Source: Jannaschia aquimarina (GTDB lineage Bacteria > Pseudomonadota > Alphaproteobacteria > Rhodobacterales > Rhodobacteraceae). Taken from it: a stretch of 64,000 nucleotides of DNA. Every line of letters begins with the position of its first letter. Position 1 is the first letter of the stretch. The stretch is from NCBI RefSeq assembly GCF_000877395.1, contig NZ_JYFE01000060.1:124001-188000 (forward strand), given 5' to 3'. Both the position numbers and the translations under genes were made by a program. This document shows positions 55,907 through 61,731 of the stretch, in pieces. The notes under the pieces were generated by a model. It was not told where the DNA came from. It saw only the letters and a list, made by a program, of their open reading frames with translations, and did not search any database.

Positions 55907-56467
55907 ATGGGCGAGCCCAAAGACGATTTCCTGGACGACCCCGAGGCCATGGACGAGGAATTCGACCTCGATGCCGCCATGGAAGAGGATGCCGACGGCC
56001 CGCGTCGTCCCGCCAATATCGACACCATCCTCGCCGAGCGCGACGAGATGAAGGACCGCTTGATGCGGGCCCTCGCCGAGGCGGAGAATGTTCGCAAACG
56101 CGCCGCCCGCGATCGCGAGGAGGCCGCGACTTATGGCGGATCGCGCCTCGCGCGCGACCTGCTTCCGGTCTACGACAACCTCAAGCGCGCGATGGATGCG
56201 GTCCCCGAGGACCAGTCCGCGATCCTCGAAGGCCTGGAACTCACCTTGCGCGAACTGACGGGCACGTTCGAAAAGCATGGGGTCAAGGTCGTCGCCCCGG
56301 CCGAGGGAGAGAAGTTCGATCCCCAGCTTCACCAAGCCATGTTCGAGGCTCCGGTCCCCGGCACCAAGGCCGGCGACATCATTCAGGTGATGGCCGAAGG
56401 CTTCATGCTGCACGAACGCCTCTTGCGTCCGGCACAGGTGGGCGTCTCGTCCACTCCGGCAAGCTGA
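55907..56467 (+). CDS. grpE: GrpE nucleotide exchange factor
   Basis: This 186-residue co-chaperone has an acidic N-terminus, a coiled-coil (IDTILAERDEMKDRLMRALAEAENVRKRAARDREEA) and the beta-domain end PGTKAGDIIQVMAEGFMLHERLLRPAQVGVS. It releases ADP from DnaK. It is cotranscribed with hrcA and followed by a strong terminator. dnaK and dnaJ are not in the window. Confidence 0.96.
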   Translation: MGEPKDDFLDDPEAMDEEFDLDAAMEEDADGPRRPANIDTILAERDEMKDRLMRALAEAENVRKRAARDREEAATYGGSRLARDLLPVYDNLKRAMDAVPEDQSAILEGLELTLRELTGTFEKHGVKVVAPAEGEKFDPQLHQAMFEAPVPGTKAGDIIQVMAEGFMLHERLLRPAQVGVSSTPAS

Positions 56468-56471
56468 TTTG

Positions 56472-56494
56472 GGCGCCCCGCGGGGCGCCTTTTT
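56472..56494 (+). terminator. Rho-independent terminator after grpE
   Basis: GGCGCCCCG paired with CGGGGCGCC (56472-56489) is a perfect palindrome followed by five T at 56490-56494, starting five bases after the grpE stop. Confidence 0.88.
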
Positions 56495-56497
56495 CGT

Positions 56498-57043
56498 TCA
56501 GGCGGCGTGCCGCAGATTGTCGAGCCGGGCGCGCAACAGGTCGCGAACGGTCAGGCCGACCATCTCGCTCAGGTCGATCTGCCGCTGGCGTGCGACGTCC
56601 AGGCTGTCGTTCAGCTTCTCCAACCCGTCCTGCAATTGCGCGGCGTGGCTTTCGAACCCGGCAGCGCGGTCGACGCGCGGGATTTCGAACTGACTCCCGA
56701 TCCGCCAGAGCGGCGCGCCCGATCGGTCGAAAATCGTGAATATATAGAGGAAGTTATCGAACGCCTCGCCGGACTTTCGATAGTTAGTCACCACCACGCG
56801 ACTGTCACGTCCCGCGGCGAAATCCCCGCGCAGCGTCTTGCGGACGCTGTCCTGCGCCCGGTCGCCTTGCAGGAAGCGGCAATTGCGGTTCCCAATTTCG
56901 GAAAGGTCGTAGCCGGTCATCCGAAGGAACGCGTCGTTGGCCAGAACCAGCGGATCGTCCTTCTGACGCGGATCGGAAAGGGTCAACGCGACCTGGCTTC
57001 CATCGAAGAAGTCACGGATCGGCTGGGGAATTTCGGTCGTCAT
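56498..57043 (-). CDS. Short LOV-domain blue-light photoreceptor
   Basis: This 181-residue protein is a single LOV (PAS) domain with short flanking helices and no output domain. The signature GNRNCRFLQG has the photoactive Cys at residue 55; flavin contacts expected of LOV are present as N87 (TNYRK), N97 (FDNFL) and Q118 (GSQFE). On blue light the Cys would bond to FMN. Similar stand-alone LOV proteins occur in Rhodobacter and Dinoroseobacter. C-terminal helices from about residue 130 could dimerise. It is the last gene of the roadblock/dynamin run, and its own regulation is unclear. Confidence 0.9.
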   Translation of the reverse strand: MTTEIPQPIRDFFDGSQVALTLSDPRQKDDPLVLANDAFLRMTGYDLSEIGNRNCRFLQGDRAQDSVRKTLRGDFAAGRDSRVVVTNYRKSGEAFDNFLYIFTIFDRSGAPLWRIGSQFEIPRVDRAAGFESHAAQLQDGLEKLNDSLDVARQRQIDLSEMVGLTVRDLLRARLDNLRHAA

Positions 57044-57070
57044 GATCGCCTCTGTTCGGAGATGGATATC

Positions 57071-57094
57071 GGCGCGGAACGGAGGCTCCGCGCC
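57071..57094 (-). terminator. Hairpin between roadblock and LOV genes
   Basis: An 8-pair stem (GGCGCGGA with TCCGCGCC, loop of 8) lies just after the roadblock stop and before the LOV gene on the minus strand. There is no T-run, so it may attenuate or stabilise rather than stop transcription. Confidence 0.35.
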
Positions 57095-57105
57095 GGATCC
57101 GGCGA

Positions 57106-57462
57106 TCAGATTTCGAGCGTCTTCTCGACGTTCTTCACCTGAACCCGGGCCATGCCCAGATTGGCGGTCTTCTTGTCCAGCGCGACGTAGACGAAGACGG
57201 TCGGGCTCTTCTCGAGCGGGCGGATCAGGTGCAGCTGCTTGCCCAGCGTGATCAGGATGTCGTCGATCCCGTCATCCAGGCCCAGCATCTCGATCGCCGA
57301 CAGCTTGGCCTTCACGACCTCGGTGTTCGCCGCGCCAGCCGCTTCCAGATCCAGATTGCCGCCGCCTTCGGAGGCCATCATGAGACCGGTTTCGCTATCG
57401 ACGAGGCACGCGCCGATGAAACCGCCGATGTCGCTCAGCTTCGAGATATCCGTTTTCGCCAT
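57106..57462 (-). CDS. Roadblock/LC7 domain protein
   Basis: This 118-residue protein is essentially one roadblock/LC7 domain: SDIGGFIGACLVDSETGLMMASEGG, VVKAKLSAIEMLGLDDGIDDILITLGKQLHLIRPLEKSPTVFVYVALDKKTANLGMARVQV. Such domains dimerise and regulate small GTPases (for example MglB with MglA). The ATG at 57462 follows AAGGA; an ATG at 57486 is also in frame. It lies 73 bases after two dynamin-like GTPase genes in the same orientation, which suggests a regulatory link to them. Confidence 0.85.
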   Translation of the reverse strand: MAKTDISKLSDIGGFIGACLVDSETGLMMASEGGGNLDLEAAGAANTEVVKAKLSAIEMLGLDDGIDDILITLGKQLHLIRPLEKSPTVFVYVALDKKTANLGMARVQVKNVEKTLEI

Positions 57463-57535
57463 CTTGGCATTCCTTCTACTCAACATGTCGGACCGAACCA
57501 TCGGCCCCTGGGGTGGTGAACCGGCCCGGGGCGCA

Positions 57536-58642
57536 TCAGGCAGGGGGAGGAGAGAGCCGCCGCAGCGGTCCGCTGCGGAAGTCTTCCAGGTCCCTTGCGA
57601 TCTGCGTCATCGCTCGTGTCCATTCGATGCCATCGTGACGCTCGGGGCGGAGGATCCGCTCGATGACAGCGCGGTGGTCATCAGATGGTTTCTGGTACGA
57701 CTCGAATGTCCGGAAAATTTGGTCCAACACCTCTTCCGGGTGGCCATTTGAAGGTATTTCCGTGGCGAGCAATTCGGCCAGGCCGGGAACGCCTTCTTGT
57801 TCCTTGCAAAGTTGGGTTTGCGGCTTTTCGGAATGTGGCGGTTTTGCGGTGAAGATCGGGCGAACCGGTTCTGTCGCAGAGACGGTTTGCGCCTCGCCGA
57901 GAGGCTCACGCCGTGAACAGGCATCTCTCGCCGCAGTGAGCCGTCCGTCCAGTGCCGACATGAGGGCTGCGCCTCCGGACGCGTTCCACGCACTCTGGTC
58001 GTCGTCGGCGCGCGCGGCCCTCGCTGCCGGCGTCGCCAGGGCAAGCGCCTCGGCAAAAAGCGAACCGGCCTCGCGTTGCACCCGCTTCATGATGCGGCCC
58101 GCATCCTTCGCCTTCCGGATCTGGTCGATCCGGGTGACGACGAGGATACCGTTCTCGTGCAAGTCCTTCGGAAGGGACTTCCAGAACTTCGCCTCGGTCG
58201 CGCGCCATGCCTGTTCTGCTGCGCTGCACCAGATCGCCGCGTCCAGGTAGGGTTTGAGGAAGTCGAGCGCGTCCTTCGCCATGTGCGGATCAGAGATCCC
58301 CGGCGTGTCGATGACATCGATCCCGTCGAGAAGCGCGGCATCGTGGGTCATCCGCACGAGAAGCAGATCATCGTCGTCCGATGACGCCGCGTCTTCCAGC
58401 GTGATCGGTTGGAGTCGCCCGTCGCGCATCAGCGCCTGGCACTCCGGCCCTCCATCGGGTGCGGTGAACCAGACTGGCGGCAGGCTGGTCGCGGTCGCCT
58501 GCATCGGAAGGACGCGCTCGCCCAGAAGCAGGTTCAGCAGCGAGGATTTGCCCGAACTGAACTCGCCCATGACGGCGAGCGTGCCGCGCGCCGAATACCA
58601 TTCCGCAAGTCGCGCCTTCGCATTGTCGGATAGCCCGCTCAT
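57536..58642 (-). CDS. Dynamin-like GTPase, small subunit
   Basis: This 368-residue P-loop GTPase has G1 GEFSSGKS at 26-33, a G2 Thr-rich MQATATSLPP, G3 DTPG at 112-115 and G4 TRID at 170-173, all in dynamin-superfamily style. The C-terminal half is helical and Lys/Glu-rich without a clear membrane anchor. It is translationally coupled (ATGA) to the larger dynamin-like gene, so the two probably work as a hetero-oligomer at membranes. Confidence 0.85.
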   Translation of the reverse strand: MSGLSDNAKARLAEWYSARGTLAVMGEFSSGKSSLLNLLLGERVLPMQATATSLPPVWFTAPDGGPECQALMRDGRLQPITLEDAASSDDDDLLLVRMTHDAALLDGIDVIDTPGISDPHMAKDALDFLKPYLDAAIWCSAAEQAWRATEAKFWKSLPKDLHENGILVVTRIDQIRKAKDAGRIMKRVQREAGSLFAEALALATPAARAARADDDQSAWNASGGAALMSALDGRLTAARDACSRREPLGEAQTVSATEPVRPIFTAKPPHSEKPQTQLCKEQEGVPGLAELLATEIPSNGHPEEVLDQIFRTFESYQKPSDDHRAVIERILRPERHDGIEWTRAMTQIARDLEDFRSGPLRRLSPPPA

Positions 58643-60762
58643 GCCGCGCGGCTACCGTCGATGGCGCTTTCCTTCGGCGCATGCTCGTCCGCGATCTTGC
58701 GCAGCTTGCCCGAGATTTCCTGCAATCGGGCAATGCGCTGGGCGACCTCGTTCCGGACGCCGAGCCGGGCCCGCAAGGCACTGCGCTGGGCGCCATCGTC
58801 GAAGGCCGAAAGACTTTGGAGCGTTTCGACGTGACCAGCCAGGAAGTCGTGGAGTTGCGTGCGTGTCCGCTGGGCGAAATCCGCGATATGGGCGTCGCGG
58901 ATCTCGTCCACCGTCTCGCGCATGGCCTCTCCCGCGATCTCGCGGAAGCGATCCACGAACGTGTCCGGACGCAGCTTGCGCCGCAGCCATGTGCCCACGA
59001 GTCCGCCCGACAGGTCGATCGTCATCGTGCGCATCAGCGAGGTCGGTGTGCCGGGTTCGACCGGACGCGGCGGCGCAACGGAAAAGACCCGGCTCGCATC
59101 GTTCAATGCGTCGCCGTAGAGGGACTCGATCCGGGCGGCGGCGGCTTCGAAGATCGGTGCGATCTTGGCCGGTGCGATCTGAACGAACCGGTCGTAGGCG
59201 ACATTCAGATCGCGGCGCAGACCTTCGGTATCCGGGGCCCAGTCGGCAGGGTCCCCGCCCTTGGCGATCAGGCGCGACAGGGTTTCGGATTCCTGCGTGA
59301 CGAAGTCGTGATACGCGCCCGACATCAGCATCAGCATCTTCTCGGACGTCTCGTGGATCATCTGATCGCAGGCCAGATGGACCTGAGCCAGCAGGCTGTC
59401 GAGTTCGTCCACCATCGCGCTGAGATCCAGATCGGTCCGCACGGCGGTCGCCTTGTCCTTCATCGCTTCCCGCAGGAGCATCAGGGACCGACCCACGACG
59501 TCCGACGCATCGCGCGCCGTCTCGGCCAGGGCAGGGGCGGCGACGGCTTCTGCGCTGCGCTGCTGGATCAGGTCCGAAAGCTCGTGCAGGCCGGAAAGGT
59601 CGATGGGCTTGCCCGCATTCCAGTCCGGCGTACCGATTGCGGGGAGATCTCCCGCAGACTCCTCCTGCAACCTGTGGGCCCGCGCGTCCGCCAGCGCGAT
59701 CAGAACGTCCATGCTGGCTTCCGAGATCTCCTCGATCTCTCCGAATCTGGCGAGGCCAGCCCAGACCGCGCTGCCAAACACCATCGGAACGTCGTCCGCC
59801 AGACCTTCGCGCGACAGCAGCTTGCGGATGGACGCCTCGATCTTCGGGATCTGCGCATCCGGATCGTCGAGCTGGTCGATCCGGTTGACGTAGAGGATCA
59901 CCTGTTCGTTCTGCAATCCGCGCAGCACCCGCATTAAGCTGACATCGACGGTGGACAGCGCCTGATTGGCATTCAGGACGAGCACGCAGATGTCCGCGTC
60001 TCCGATCCGCTCCAATGTCGCGGCCTCGCGCACCAGGAACGGGTCGTTCACGCCGGGCGTGTCGCAGATCACGGTCGGCAGGGCATAACCTCGGTGATCG
60101 AGATAGAGATCCGCGCTGCGCGTCACGTCGGCGTAGCGGCCTTCCGATCCGCCCGGCTGGTCGGCCATCTCTTCCTCGCCCATGCAGACGTATTTCTCGA
60201 CGAGGGATGGCGAGTGACCGGCGAAGCTGTGACGACCGTCTAGCAAAAGCTGGAAGTTGCGACCGAGCCGGGCCTCGGTCCGGCGCTGCATCTCGTCGAT
60301 CTGCTCGCGCAGGGTGTCGGTTTCCAGATCCAGGCCCGCTTCGTCCGACATGCGGCCCAGCTTGCCGCCGCGCTCGACCATCTCGGCCCACTCCGCCGAA
60401 GAGAAGAAGGTGAAGACGGCGTTCTTGCCGCGCGGTTTCGGCGTGTTGAGATGGATCGACGTGACGACCGACGTCCACGGGTTCACGTCCGACGGCAGCA
60501 GACCGCTAGAGCCGATCAGTGCGTTCGTCAGGGCCGTCTTTCCGGCCTTCACCTGTCCCAGCAGCGACACCCTCGTGCGGAAGTCGTCCAGACCGGTGCG
60601 CAGGCGCGTCACGCGGTCGGTCTCCTCCGGAACGACGAGACCCGAGATCTCGTCCAGCAGCTGGCCGACCTCACGCCGGGCGGTTGCGATTTCGCGTGCA
60701 GCCTTGGCCCCGTCGACGGGGCCACTGCTGAGCGCGAGTTGCTGCAGAGCCTTGTCATTCAT
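58639..60762 (-). CDS. Dynamin-like GTPase, large subunit
   Basis: This 707-residue protein has a dynamin-family G domain: G1 GQVKAGKT at 69-76, PSDVNPWTSVVTSI (G2 Thr), G3 DTPG at 234-237 and G4 NRID at 293-296. A long helical stalk follows (about 400-680), with hydrophobic patches near residue 590-610 (SLMRTMTIDLSGGLVGTWLRRK) that could contact membrane. It resembles bacterial dynamin-like proteins that reshape or protect membranes. It precedes and overlaps the smaller GTPase gene. Confidence 0.87.
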   Translation of the reverse strand: MNDKALQQLALSSGPVDGAKAAREIATARREVGQLLDEISGLVVPEETDRVTRLRTGLDDFRTRVSLLGQVKAGKTALTNALIGSSGLLPSDVNPWTSVVTSIHLNTPKPRGKNAVFTFFSSAEWAEMVERGGKLGRMSDEAGLDLETDTLREQIDEMQRRTEARLGRNFQLLLDGRHSFAGHSPSLVEKYVCMGEEEMADQPGGSEGRYADVTRSADLYLDHRGYALPTVICDTPGVNDPFLVREAATLERIGDADICVLVLNANQALSTVDVSLMRVLRGLQNEQVILYVNRIDQLDDPDAQIPKIEASIRKLLSREGLADDVPMVFGSAVWAGLARFGEIEEISEASMDVLIALADARAHRLQEESAGDLPAIGTPDWNAGKPIDLSGLHELSDLIQQRSAEAVAAPALAETARDASDVVGRSLMLLREAMKDKATAVRTDLDLSAMVDELDSLLAQVHLACDQMIHETSEKMLMLMSGAYHDFVTQESETLSRLIAKGGDPADWAPDTEGLRRDLNVAYDRFVQIAPAKIAPIFEAAAARIESLYGDALNDASRVFSVAPPRPVEPGTPTSLMRTMTIDLSGGLVGTWLRRKLRPDTFVDRFREIAGEAMRETVDEIRDAHIADFAQRTRTQLHDFLAGHVETLQSLSAFDDGAQRSALRARLGVRNEVAQRIARLQEISGKLRKIADEHAPKESAIDGSRAA

Positions 60763-60791
60763 TCACTCGTTCTCCCGCCTGTCGGGCCGCT

Positions 60792-61586
60792 CTAAGCCCC
60801 CGCGACCACTGAGCCTTTTTCGTTCATTGTCATTGATATCGGTGGCGCGCCCGGTTCCGCGTGAAGCGTCGCGCGCCCGGCGCCCAAGGCACGAAGGGCG
60901 CGGGAAAAGCCGACCATCGCGGCGATCTCGGCAAATGCCGCGTCCTTGGGGCAGGCGAGGGGCCAGCCGCTTCGGTCGAGCCTCCAGAGCCCGTCCTCGC
61001 AACCCAGAAGGACCGGAGCCGGGACCTGAGGCCCGATCGTGTCTTCGGGAGCAGCCAACGTGTAGACGACGTCCCGCCCGGCGCCGATGGCCGAGGTGAT
61101 GAGGGGCGCGATGTCCGTCGGATCGGTCGCGCCGGCGACCAGCCTCACTCCGTCGCGGTCCGCCCGCAGCTTGAGCCGTTCGCTGCCGGTCAGCACGCTC
61201 AGGAGGCGCGGCAATTCGACCGCGTAGAGGCGCTGAGCCAGTGCCCAGAGCGTGTGATGGACCGCATCCGTCCAGACAGGGGCGGGACCGGCCGGGATCG
61301 CGTTGACCGCTTCGGGCAACGCGCGAAGCCGGACAGCCAGAAGTCCCGCGTTCAGACGGTCGTCGCCTTCGACGACGAGCCCGGTTCGAAGGCAGAGGAT
61401 CACACGACCATCTCGGCCCGAAACGACAGCGCGCCTCATGCCGAGGCCGGACAAGGCATGGCATGCTGCGATCTTCGGGGAGATGGCAGACGCGTCCTCT
61501 CCGATTGACAGGACGCGCGTCACGCCTTGCACCTCTGCGAGGCTGGCATATTCGGAGGACAGGTCGGCTTGGGCGTGGTGCAGCAT
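60792..61586 (-). CDS. Conserved-looking protein of unknown function upstream of dynamin-like pair
   Basis: This 264-residue soluble protein has no motif I can name. It begins MLHHAQADLSSEYASLAEV, has RAVVSGRDGRVILCLRTGLVV near residue 62 (a roadblock-like beta pattern at best), and ends in ISMTMNEKGSVVAGA. The gene lies 29 bases before the large dynamin-like GTPase and probably belongs to the same operon. I use the ATG at 61586 because a promoter-like element at 61638-61667 would start transcription inside the longer alternative frame (ATG at 61685). Confidence 0.6.
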   Translation of the reverse strand: MLHHAQADLSSEYASLAEVQGVTRVLSIGEDASAISPKIAACHALSGLGMRRAVVSGRDGRVILCLRTGLVVEGDDRLNAGLLAVRLRALPEAVNAIPAGPAPVWTDAVHHTLWALAQRLYAVELPRLLSVLTGSERLKLRADRDGVRLVAGATDPTDIAPLITSAIGAGRDVVYTLAAPEDTIGPQVPAPVLLGCEDGLWRLDRSGWPLACPKDAAFAEIAAMVGFSRALRALGAGRATLHAEPGAPPISMTMNEKGSVVAGA

Positions 61587-61667: not shown

Positions 61668-61731
61668 AAATGTGCAAACACGCATTCATACGCATCCGCA
61701 TCGGCCCCACCGTTTCCGTGTCTGGGCACCT

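Follow-up and report, generated by a model that had tools for sequence, protein, structure and literature searches.

The Campylobacter dynamin pair Cj-DLP1/2 hetero-oligomerises and tethers membranes, according to the accessible part of its description (PMC6104087), and MglB, in literature likewise available in part, is the GTPase-activating protein (GAP) of the GTPase MglA. A globin-roadblock protein, HGbRL, also exists, as its partly available report describes (PMC4476040). For short LOV proteins, the first effector reported is the product of an adjacent gene, a transcription factor in Pseudomonas, and no partner is known for RsLOV or DsLOV in the available portion of the same source (PMC9758184). 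Here we describe a locus in which parts of these kinds stand together, in a 64,000-nucleotide stretch of Jannaschia aquimarina (contig NZ_JYFE01000060.1, positions 124,001 to 188,000; hereafter the window). A run of five minus-strand genes, all at the positions originally predicted (56498-61586), encodes an orphan protein (ORPH), two dynamin-like GTPases (DLP1 and DLP2), a protein of predicted roadblock/LC7 fold (RB) and a short LOV protein (LOV). The grouping of these cassette genes exceeds chance. The parts are of known kinds and their combination is undescribed among the literature matches listed: searches on roadblock proteins, bacterial dynamins and LOV with either, covering mostly papers that need no subscription, listed no roadblock-dynamin or LOV-roadblock-dynamin system, in line with the original prediction, whose author was aware of no described system of such make-up.

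The nearest known logic to the cassette is that of the actinobacterial conservons (CvnA-D), in which a sensor, a roadblock protein and a GTPase likewise share an operon, with accessory sensors. In the available text on conservons, however, the sensor is the histidine-kinase-like CvnA and the GTPase is the small CvnD (PMC13343842), whereas here a putative flavin photoreceptor accompanies a dynamin pair; among CvnA, roadblock CvnB, CvnC and CvnD, the roadblock protein alone is represented in the window block. The RB model shares the fold of MglB from the Myxococcus MglA-MglB system and RB is likewise gene-coupled to GTPases, but these are dynamin-like rather than small and Ras-like, and RB is distant from MglB in sequence. 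A search of 40 Rhodobacterales RB loci, confined to homologues of the small GTPase that accompanies RB in Acinetobacter locus L112, found none. The DLP genes are adjacent, as in Cj-DLP1/2 and LeoA/B/C, but DLP2 is short here (368 aa) with a variable tail, and for those pairs the accessible text mentions neither a roadblock protein as partner nor an input by LOV or kinase (PMC6104087). HGbRL couples a sensor domain to a roadblock domain, as here, but its sensor is a haem globin and is fused, with no dynamin mentioned in the available part of the report (PMC4476040), whereas the cassette has a separate LOV protein and dynamins. Finally, RsLOV, DsLOV, PpSB-LOV and PmSB-LOV resemble the LOV protein here in standing alone, in having no output domain and in their photo-motif; unlike them, the cassette LOV belongs to a separate clade among the LOVs of its family and is found, in the genomes searched, solely in the RB-dynamin cassette. 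The partner given for PmSB-LOV in the accessible text is a MerR-type regulator (PMC9758184), unlike the RB-dynamin context here, and no transcription-factor gene was recurrent, by eye, in the flanks viewed.

The strongest link in the cassette is that of RB with the dynamin pair. DLP1 (707 aa; minus strand, 58639-60762) and DLP2 (368 aa; minus strand, 57536-58642), the latter made up of a G domain of the dynamin type and a C-terminal tail that varies, both match Pfam Dynamin_N (6.5e-12 and 6.3e-13, respectively) and their genes overlap by 4 bp (ATGA), which bears out the suggestion of a coupled dynamin-like pair. The closest solved relative of DLP1 by sequence is 2j68 (2.4e-5), a bacterial dynamin-like protein that we take to be from Nostoc, with 5owv_A at 4e-4; that of DLP2 is 5owv_C (3.2e-10), 5owv being presumably the Campylobacter dynamin pair. 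As in other bacterial dynamin-like pairs, G1, G3 and G4 motifs occur in both proteins (GQVKAGKT, DTPG and NRID in DLP1; GEFSSGKS, DTPG and TRID in DLP2), and those of DLP1 are retained in most of 20 aligned relatives, some of which are partial. A conserved segment of the DLP1 alignment, P..L..T..ID....W.., often Trp-bearing, is a candidate membrane-contact loop, and the pair may bind or remodel membranes.

RB (118 aa; minus strand, 57106-57462, with an alternative start possible at 57501) lies 73 bp beyond DLP2. Alone it had no Pfam match at E<1, while Robl_LC7 was matched weakly by 3 of 13 aligned RB relatives (best 0.0053) and, just below the cut-off of 23 bits, by an Acinetobacter member (2.3e-4, 21.3 bits). 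The AlphaFold2 (AF2) model of RB (pLDDT 90.6) has the alpha-beta-beta-alpha-beta-beta-beta-alpha order of the roadblock fold. Foldseek returned 66 PDB matches to it at E<=1e-3, including MglB, Ragulator and Asgard roadblock structures, of which the first 50 were all roadblock proteins or their complexes; the top match was MglB 6hjm (E 1.4e-6, TM 0.78), with a sequence identity to MglB of 18-20% in the structural alignment. By prediction, then, RB has a roadblock/LC7 fold, and its earlier naming as a roadblock protein stands.

Association of RB with dynamins was seen at the level of genomes, of neighbourhoods and of reading frames. In a sample of 150 genomes of the family, a DLP1 homologue (>=200 bits, a threshold chosen after the list was inspected) was present in 10/10 RB genomes as compared with 38/150 overall (p 4e-7). 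The best 80 RB matches of a GTDB scan comprised 40 loci outside Rhodobacterales and 40 within it, including L115 (Pontivivens) and L099 (Neomegalonema; same order, other family). A same-strand DLP gene was located within 6 kb of RB in 24 of the 40 Rhodobacterales loci, so that the neighbourhood survey proposed with the original prediction does find the RB-dynamin grouping to recur, and two gene orders were observed, DLP1-DLP2-RB and RB-DLP1-DLP2-DLP1'-DLP2'. At three loci (L048, L049 and L050, from genomes G068, G014 and G004) DLP2 and RB are in one reading frame. In G068 and G014 the RB part is preceded by a purine run and then an in-frame ATG, from which free RB could also be produced; the RB part of G004 has diverged (33%). 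Genome co-occurrence, synteny and the reading frames shared with DLP2 support the conclusion that RB belongs with the dynamin pair.

The LOV gene (minus strand, 56498-57043) encodes 181 aa with a LOV domain, a C-terminal extension and no fused output domain, as is typical of a short LOV protein. The photoactive cysteine is intact, as had been claimed: it is Cys55 of RNCRFLQG, within the NCRFLQ photo-motif. Matches to NCBIfam were all below cut-offs (PRK13559 'hypothetical protein', 4.7e-29; blue-light histidine kinase, 1.4e-27; YtvA family, 3e-25), and comparison with solved LOV proteins gave 4.3e-28, the nearest being 7ob0/4hj3 'LOV protein'. Cys55, Asn87, Asn97 and Gln118 are invariant in 6/6 aligned LOVs linked to the cassette, a conservation that would suit flavin binding and a blue-light photocycle. 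The C-terminal extension is retained in this clade and, by analogy, would be helical.

Linkage of LOV to the cassette was consistent across species. The order DLP1-DLP2-RB-LOV is the same in seven species (the window, J. pohangensis, G053, G014, G314, G827 and Roseobacter sp. CCS2), with identical LOV position and strand in 7/7, including the diverged G014 locus (RB 74%, DLP1 35-37% identity); the space between RB and LOV measures 60-77 bp in six species and, from match ends, about 71 bp in G827. The LOV tree, alignment and statistics comprise six linked LOVs, G827 being a seventh that was found later. LOV orthologues (>170 bits; next match 108) occur in 4 of 394 family genomes and 4/4 adjoin RB, which itself occurs in 25/394 (p 1.3e-5). 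At class level, E 1e-25 was passed by 2/385 genomes (the window's and G314), both of this family and both with LOV beside RB. Neither RB nor a DLP was found within about 4 kb of any of 20 other family LOV loci, which were the best further matches and mostly short frames, as against 6/6 of the linked LOVs (p 4e-6). In a tree of 26 LOVs the six linked LOVs form one clade (96/98). Both this tree and that of DLP1 pair the window with G053 and J. pohangensis with G314, though they differ in where they place CCS2. These patterns support an association of this LOV subfamily with the RB-dynamin cassette.

The cassette has an accessory character. RB was detected in 2/20 genomes of the genus, the window's own included, in 25 of the family genomes (in G211 and G295 as weak matches inside longer frames) and in 19/292 genomes of the order at E<=1e-15. 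Among ten congeners fetched, no cassette gene was present in the 6-7 kb beyond grpE, the gene that borders the cassette in the window. The J. pohangensis cassette is on another contig in a different genomic place. In the trees of LOV and of DLP1 this species is closer to G314 than to the window, which points to horizontal transfer; the RB tree does not settle the placement of this pair. Neighbouring genes vary by locus in the flanks viewed. We read the cassette as accessory and horizontally mobile.

We lean slightly towards a reading in which RB is a regulator or adaptor of the dynamin pair, one lineage has LOV as a plug-in input for blue light and the whole is a mobile cassette. Several points weigh against this reading. 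LOV is missing from 21/25 RB genomes of the family and present in 4/25, and it occurs at 2/80 of the best GTDB RB loci; absence from most orthologous loci, which the original prediction had itself named as grounds for rejection, is thus what was found. The occurrences of LOV are scattered over the tree of RB (5 changes, 105/500 shuffles as low) and over that of DLP1 (4 changes, 17/500 shuffles as low), and no LOV-RB or LOV-DLP fusion was seen in the loci examined, although no systematic search was made. A stable hairpin lies between RB and LOV, so co-transcription of LOV may be inefficient. As to the dynamins, 16/40 Rhodobacterales RB loci have no DLP within 6 kb (contig ends cut 5/16), three loci with a kinase-RB frame have no DLP in the fetched stretches, and membrane contact through the conserved DLP1 loop is read from sequence alone. 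We know of no precedent for a roadblock protein acting on a dynamin.

Because LOV is absent from most RB loci, it would be an optional input and not a core component, and the scatter on the trees together with the 21/25 genomes without it indicates that the RB-dynamin system is older and that gain and loss of LOV, or its movement, took place within it. The rarity of LOV among RB loci is offset by a LOV clade found solely beside RB. Thus, of the interpretation first proposed, the RB-dynamin grouping and the grouping of this LOV subfamily with the cassette are upheld, while LOV as a core component is not.

The recurrent grouping suggests that light may tune a membrane-remodelling machine. In the mechanism that we envisage, DLP1, as the full-length member, and DLP2, as a G-domain partner with a variable tail, would form a heterotypic dynamin pair under an MglB-like RB. 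RB would dimerise and dock on the G domain or tail of DLP2, and docked RB would regulate either the hydrolysis of GTP or the assembly of DLP1 with DLP2, in the way that MglB regulates MglA, by an action like that of a GAP or a guanine nucleotide exchange factor. RB would also act as a socket with a docking face for an input module. Blue light would generate a Cys-flavin adduct in LOV and rearrange its C-terminal extension; LOV would then bind or release RB, and the GTPase or membrane state of the pair would shift. In relatives, a Ser/Thr kinase may take the input place, either as kinase-RB proteins or as kinase-FHA-PP2C clusters, and ORPH, with its roadblock-like N-terminus, could be a hetero-partner of RB. 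A bolder version, which we find a shade more doubtful than credible, is a blue-light-gated dynamin in which the short LOV switches the dynamin pair via RB as adaptor and via another roadblock protein, a cryptic one, as one member of a wider undescribed class of bacterial dynamins that are regulated by roadblock proteins and have exchangeable inputs (LOV, Ser/Thr kinase). The locus makes the partners of alphaproteobacterial short LOVs and the switching of bacterial dynamins testable now. A roadblock protein acting on a dynamin, if true, would join two separate worlds of GTPase regulation, that of MglB/Ragulator and that of the dynamins, and a natural light-gated membrane GTPase, if true, would be practically useful.

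Other explanations draw on parts of the same evidence. The true partner of RB may be a small Ras-like GTPase encoded elsewhere, with the dynamins as mere neighbours: outside Rhodobacterales, where the 40 RB loci have no DLP and no LOV, such a GTPase was found within 3.5 kb of RB in 27/40 loci (e.g. Acinetobacter, Lysobacter), the Acinetobacter one matching Pfam ATP_bind_1 above the cut-off and Ras and Roc below it. We give this explanation very little credence, given that no such GTPase is found at any of the 40 Rhodobacterales RB loci, that DLP2 and RB share a frame in three loci and that all RB genomes of the 150-genome sample carry DLP1; a lack of matches in 12 RB-bearing family genomes, the window's included, shows little as there was no positive control. 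Small GTPases near RB elsewhere and dynamins in Rhodobacterales indicate that linkage to a GTPase is frequent in the RB family and that the kind of GTPase differs between lineages. The frequency of GTPases beside RB-family genes in other taxa also speaks for regulation, and so against the cassette being an accessory anti-phage or envelope-stress defence in which RB would serve structurally, as a scaffold, and would have no part in regulation. Such a defence role would fit the patchy, mobile distribution in differing genomic places, and the PADLOC LeoA profile touches DLP1 (6e-7) and DLP2 (7e-5), but inspection of the viewed flanks by eye, short of a systematic scan, revealed no known defence gene, and we regard this explanation as unlikely.

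A further alternative concerns LOV itself, which could be a redox or oxygen sensor acting via its flavin, and not mainly a Cys-adduct light sensor, so that the cassette would be a stress-operated membrane device. LOV variants without the cysteine can still produce a response via light-driven flavin photoreduction, according to the accessible part of one report, and the flavin redox state can therefore signal (PMC5645311). The photoactive Cys and the flavin-site residues, however, are invariant in the six linked LOVs, a conservation beyond the needs of redox sensing alone, and we consider this alternative highly improbable.

Expression of LOV depends on how the 62-bp gap between RB and LOV is read (minus strand, 57044-57105). 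This gap is filled by a hairpin (-32.8 kcal/mol, z -2.8) with no U-tract, which was left unscored as a terminator in the terminator scan. Hairpins at z <= -2.0 follow RB in 6/6 LOV loci and in 15/18 folded copies without LOV (not L055, L081 and L095), and an initial candidate, a hairpin specific to LOV, was dropped on this account. Occurrence of a like hairpin after RB in most loci without LOV makes it possibly an operon-end element, and the RB-LOV hairpin may be one too. T-runs, scored by eye, follow the hairpin in three of the 18 copies without LOV (L052, L075 and L076) as compared with 0/6 with LOV, a difference too small to claim. LOV may then be expressed by lower-level read-through or from its own promoter in little space. 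Separate transcription had been named beforehand as evidence against a joint system; the hairpin does divide RB from LOV and co-transcription of LOV is uncertain. A terminator scan of the region gave 4 sites, with 3.5 expected by chance, namely one between grpE and LOV on the plus strand, one upstream of ORPH and two inside DLP coding sequence. A sigma-70 promoter scan of the region gave nothing; neither scan is informative here.

ORPH (264 aa; minus strand, 60792-61586, or longer if the ATG at 61685 is the start) is the upstream neighbour of DLP1, from which it is separated by 29 bp. Reading frames upstream of DLP1 in 10 further loci have 19-31% identity to it, seven detected by tblastn and three (L072, L073 and L075) by position and alignment, and L210 also has ORPH by tblastn; the ORPH alignment has three invariant columns only. 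ORPH is present in 6/7 LOV species, in CCS2 by position only, and was not found in the G014 locus. Comparisons with Pfam, NCBIfam and PADLOC gave no usable family match, the best Pfam E of 0.1 being taken as chance. The AF2 model (pLDDT 89) had no Foldseek PDB match at E<=1e-3, and PCNA-like rows with TM of about 0.2 were set aside as noise. In a VIA search with this model, the top 25 rows were all roadblock proteins (Z 6.2-4.5, residues 6-96), with unrelated rows at Z 3.9 and below, while profile comparison of ORPH with RB gave a probability under 2%. As VIA Z <8 can reflect a common arrangement, we grade the assignment as probable: residues ~8-94 are probably a degenerate roadblock-like domain. 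This assignment does not extend to the remainder (~105-264). The label 'orphan' needs correction in that ORPH is a recurring, fast-evolving component of the cassette.

Kinases occur in related loci. A Ser/Thr kinase and RB are in one frame at three loci, from G211, G879 and Rhodobacter sp. SY28-1 (L082 7798-9345; L212 4978-6426; L213 5347-6813), and in L082, from Rhodobacter sp. SY28-1, an in-frame ATG precedes RB, so that long and free RB forms are both possible. The kinase of these loci shares 48-53% identity with the one in L059, where kinase, FHA, PP2C and dynamin genes form a cluster. By sequence clustering, G053 has kinase, FHA and PP2C members of these same groups, the kinase start not being located, and beyond LOV it has a second pair of dynamins. 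Clusters in which dynamins are accompanied by Ser/Thr kinase, FHA and PP2C genes were noted in L059 (5468-18484), L047/L058, L060, L062 and L066, with Pfam assignments for L059 only and no FHA cluster member in L066; they are a candidate phosphorylation-linked dynamin system.

Other recurrent arrangements were noted in passing. A family of ~130 aa, A4, occurs in 17 dynamin loci (L062 11165-11575 and 16 reading frames in L021-L066), after DLP2 in the seven loci of known layout and in frame with DLP2 in L065. Its pattern resembled a roadblock by eye, but comparison with the RB profile covered 25-26 columns at a probability under 5% and searches of PDB and Pfam gave no roadblock match, so A4 is not claimed as a roadblock. 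The dynamin locus L050 (9124-11742) contains three RB-type domains, one of them at the DLP2 C-terminus. Acinetobacter L112 (9001-11354) and similar loci have a recurrent set of RB, a 319-aa protein, the small Ras-like GTPase and a second roadblock protein.

The cassette of the window is flanked by hrcA-grpE on one side and by an ABC transporter on the other. Its 3' boundary is a terminator-like hairpin with a T-run (plus strand, 56471-56490) between LOV and the convergent gene at 55907-56467 (plus strand), a housekeeping flank outside the cassette that we take from its sequence to be grpE and that is present in 20/20 genomes of the genus. The window's genome has a further dynamin locus on contig C52 (58-4436; L187, L188), where a single DLP1-like gene is accompanied by two that are DLP2-like.

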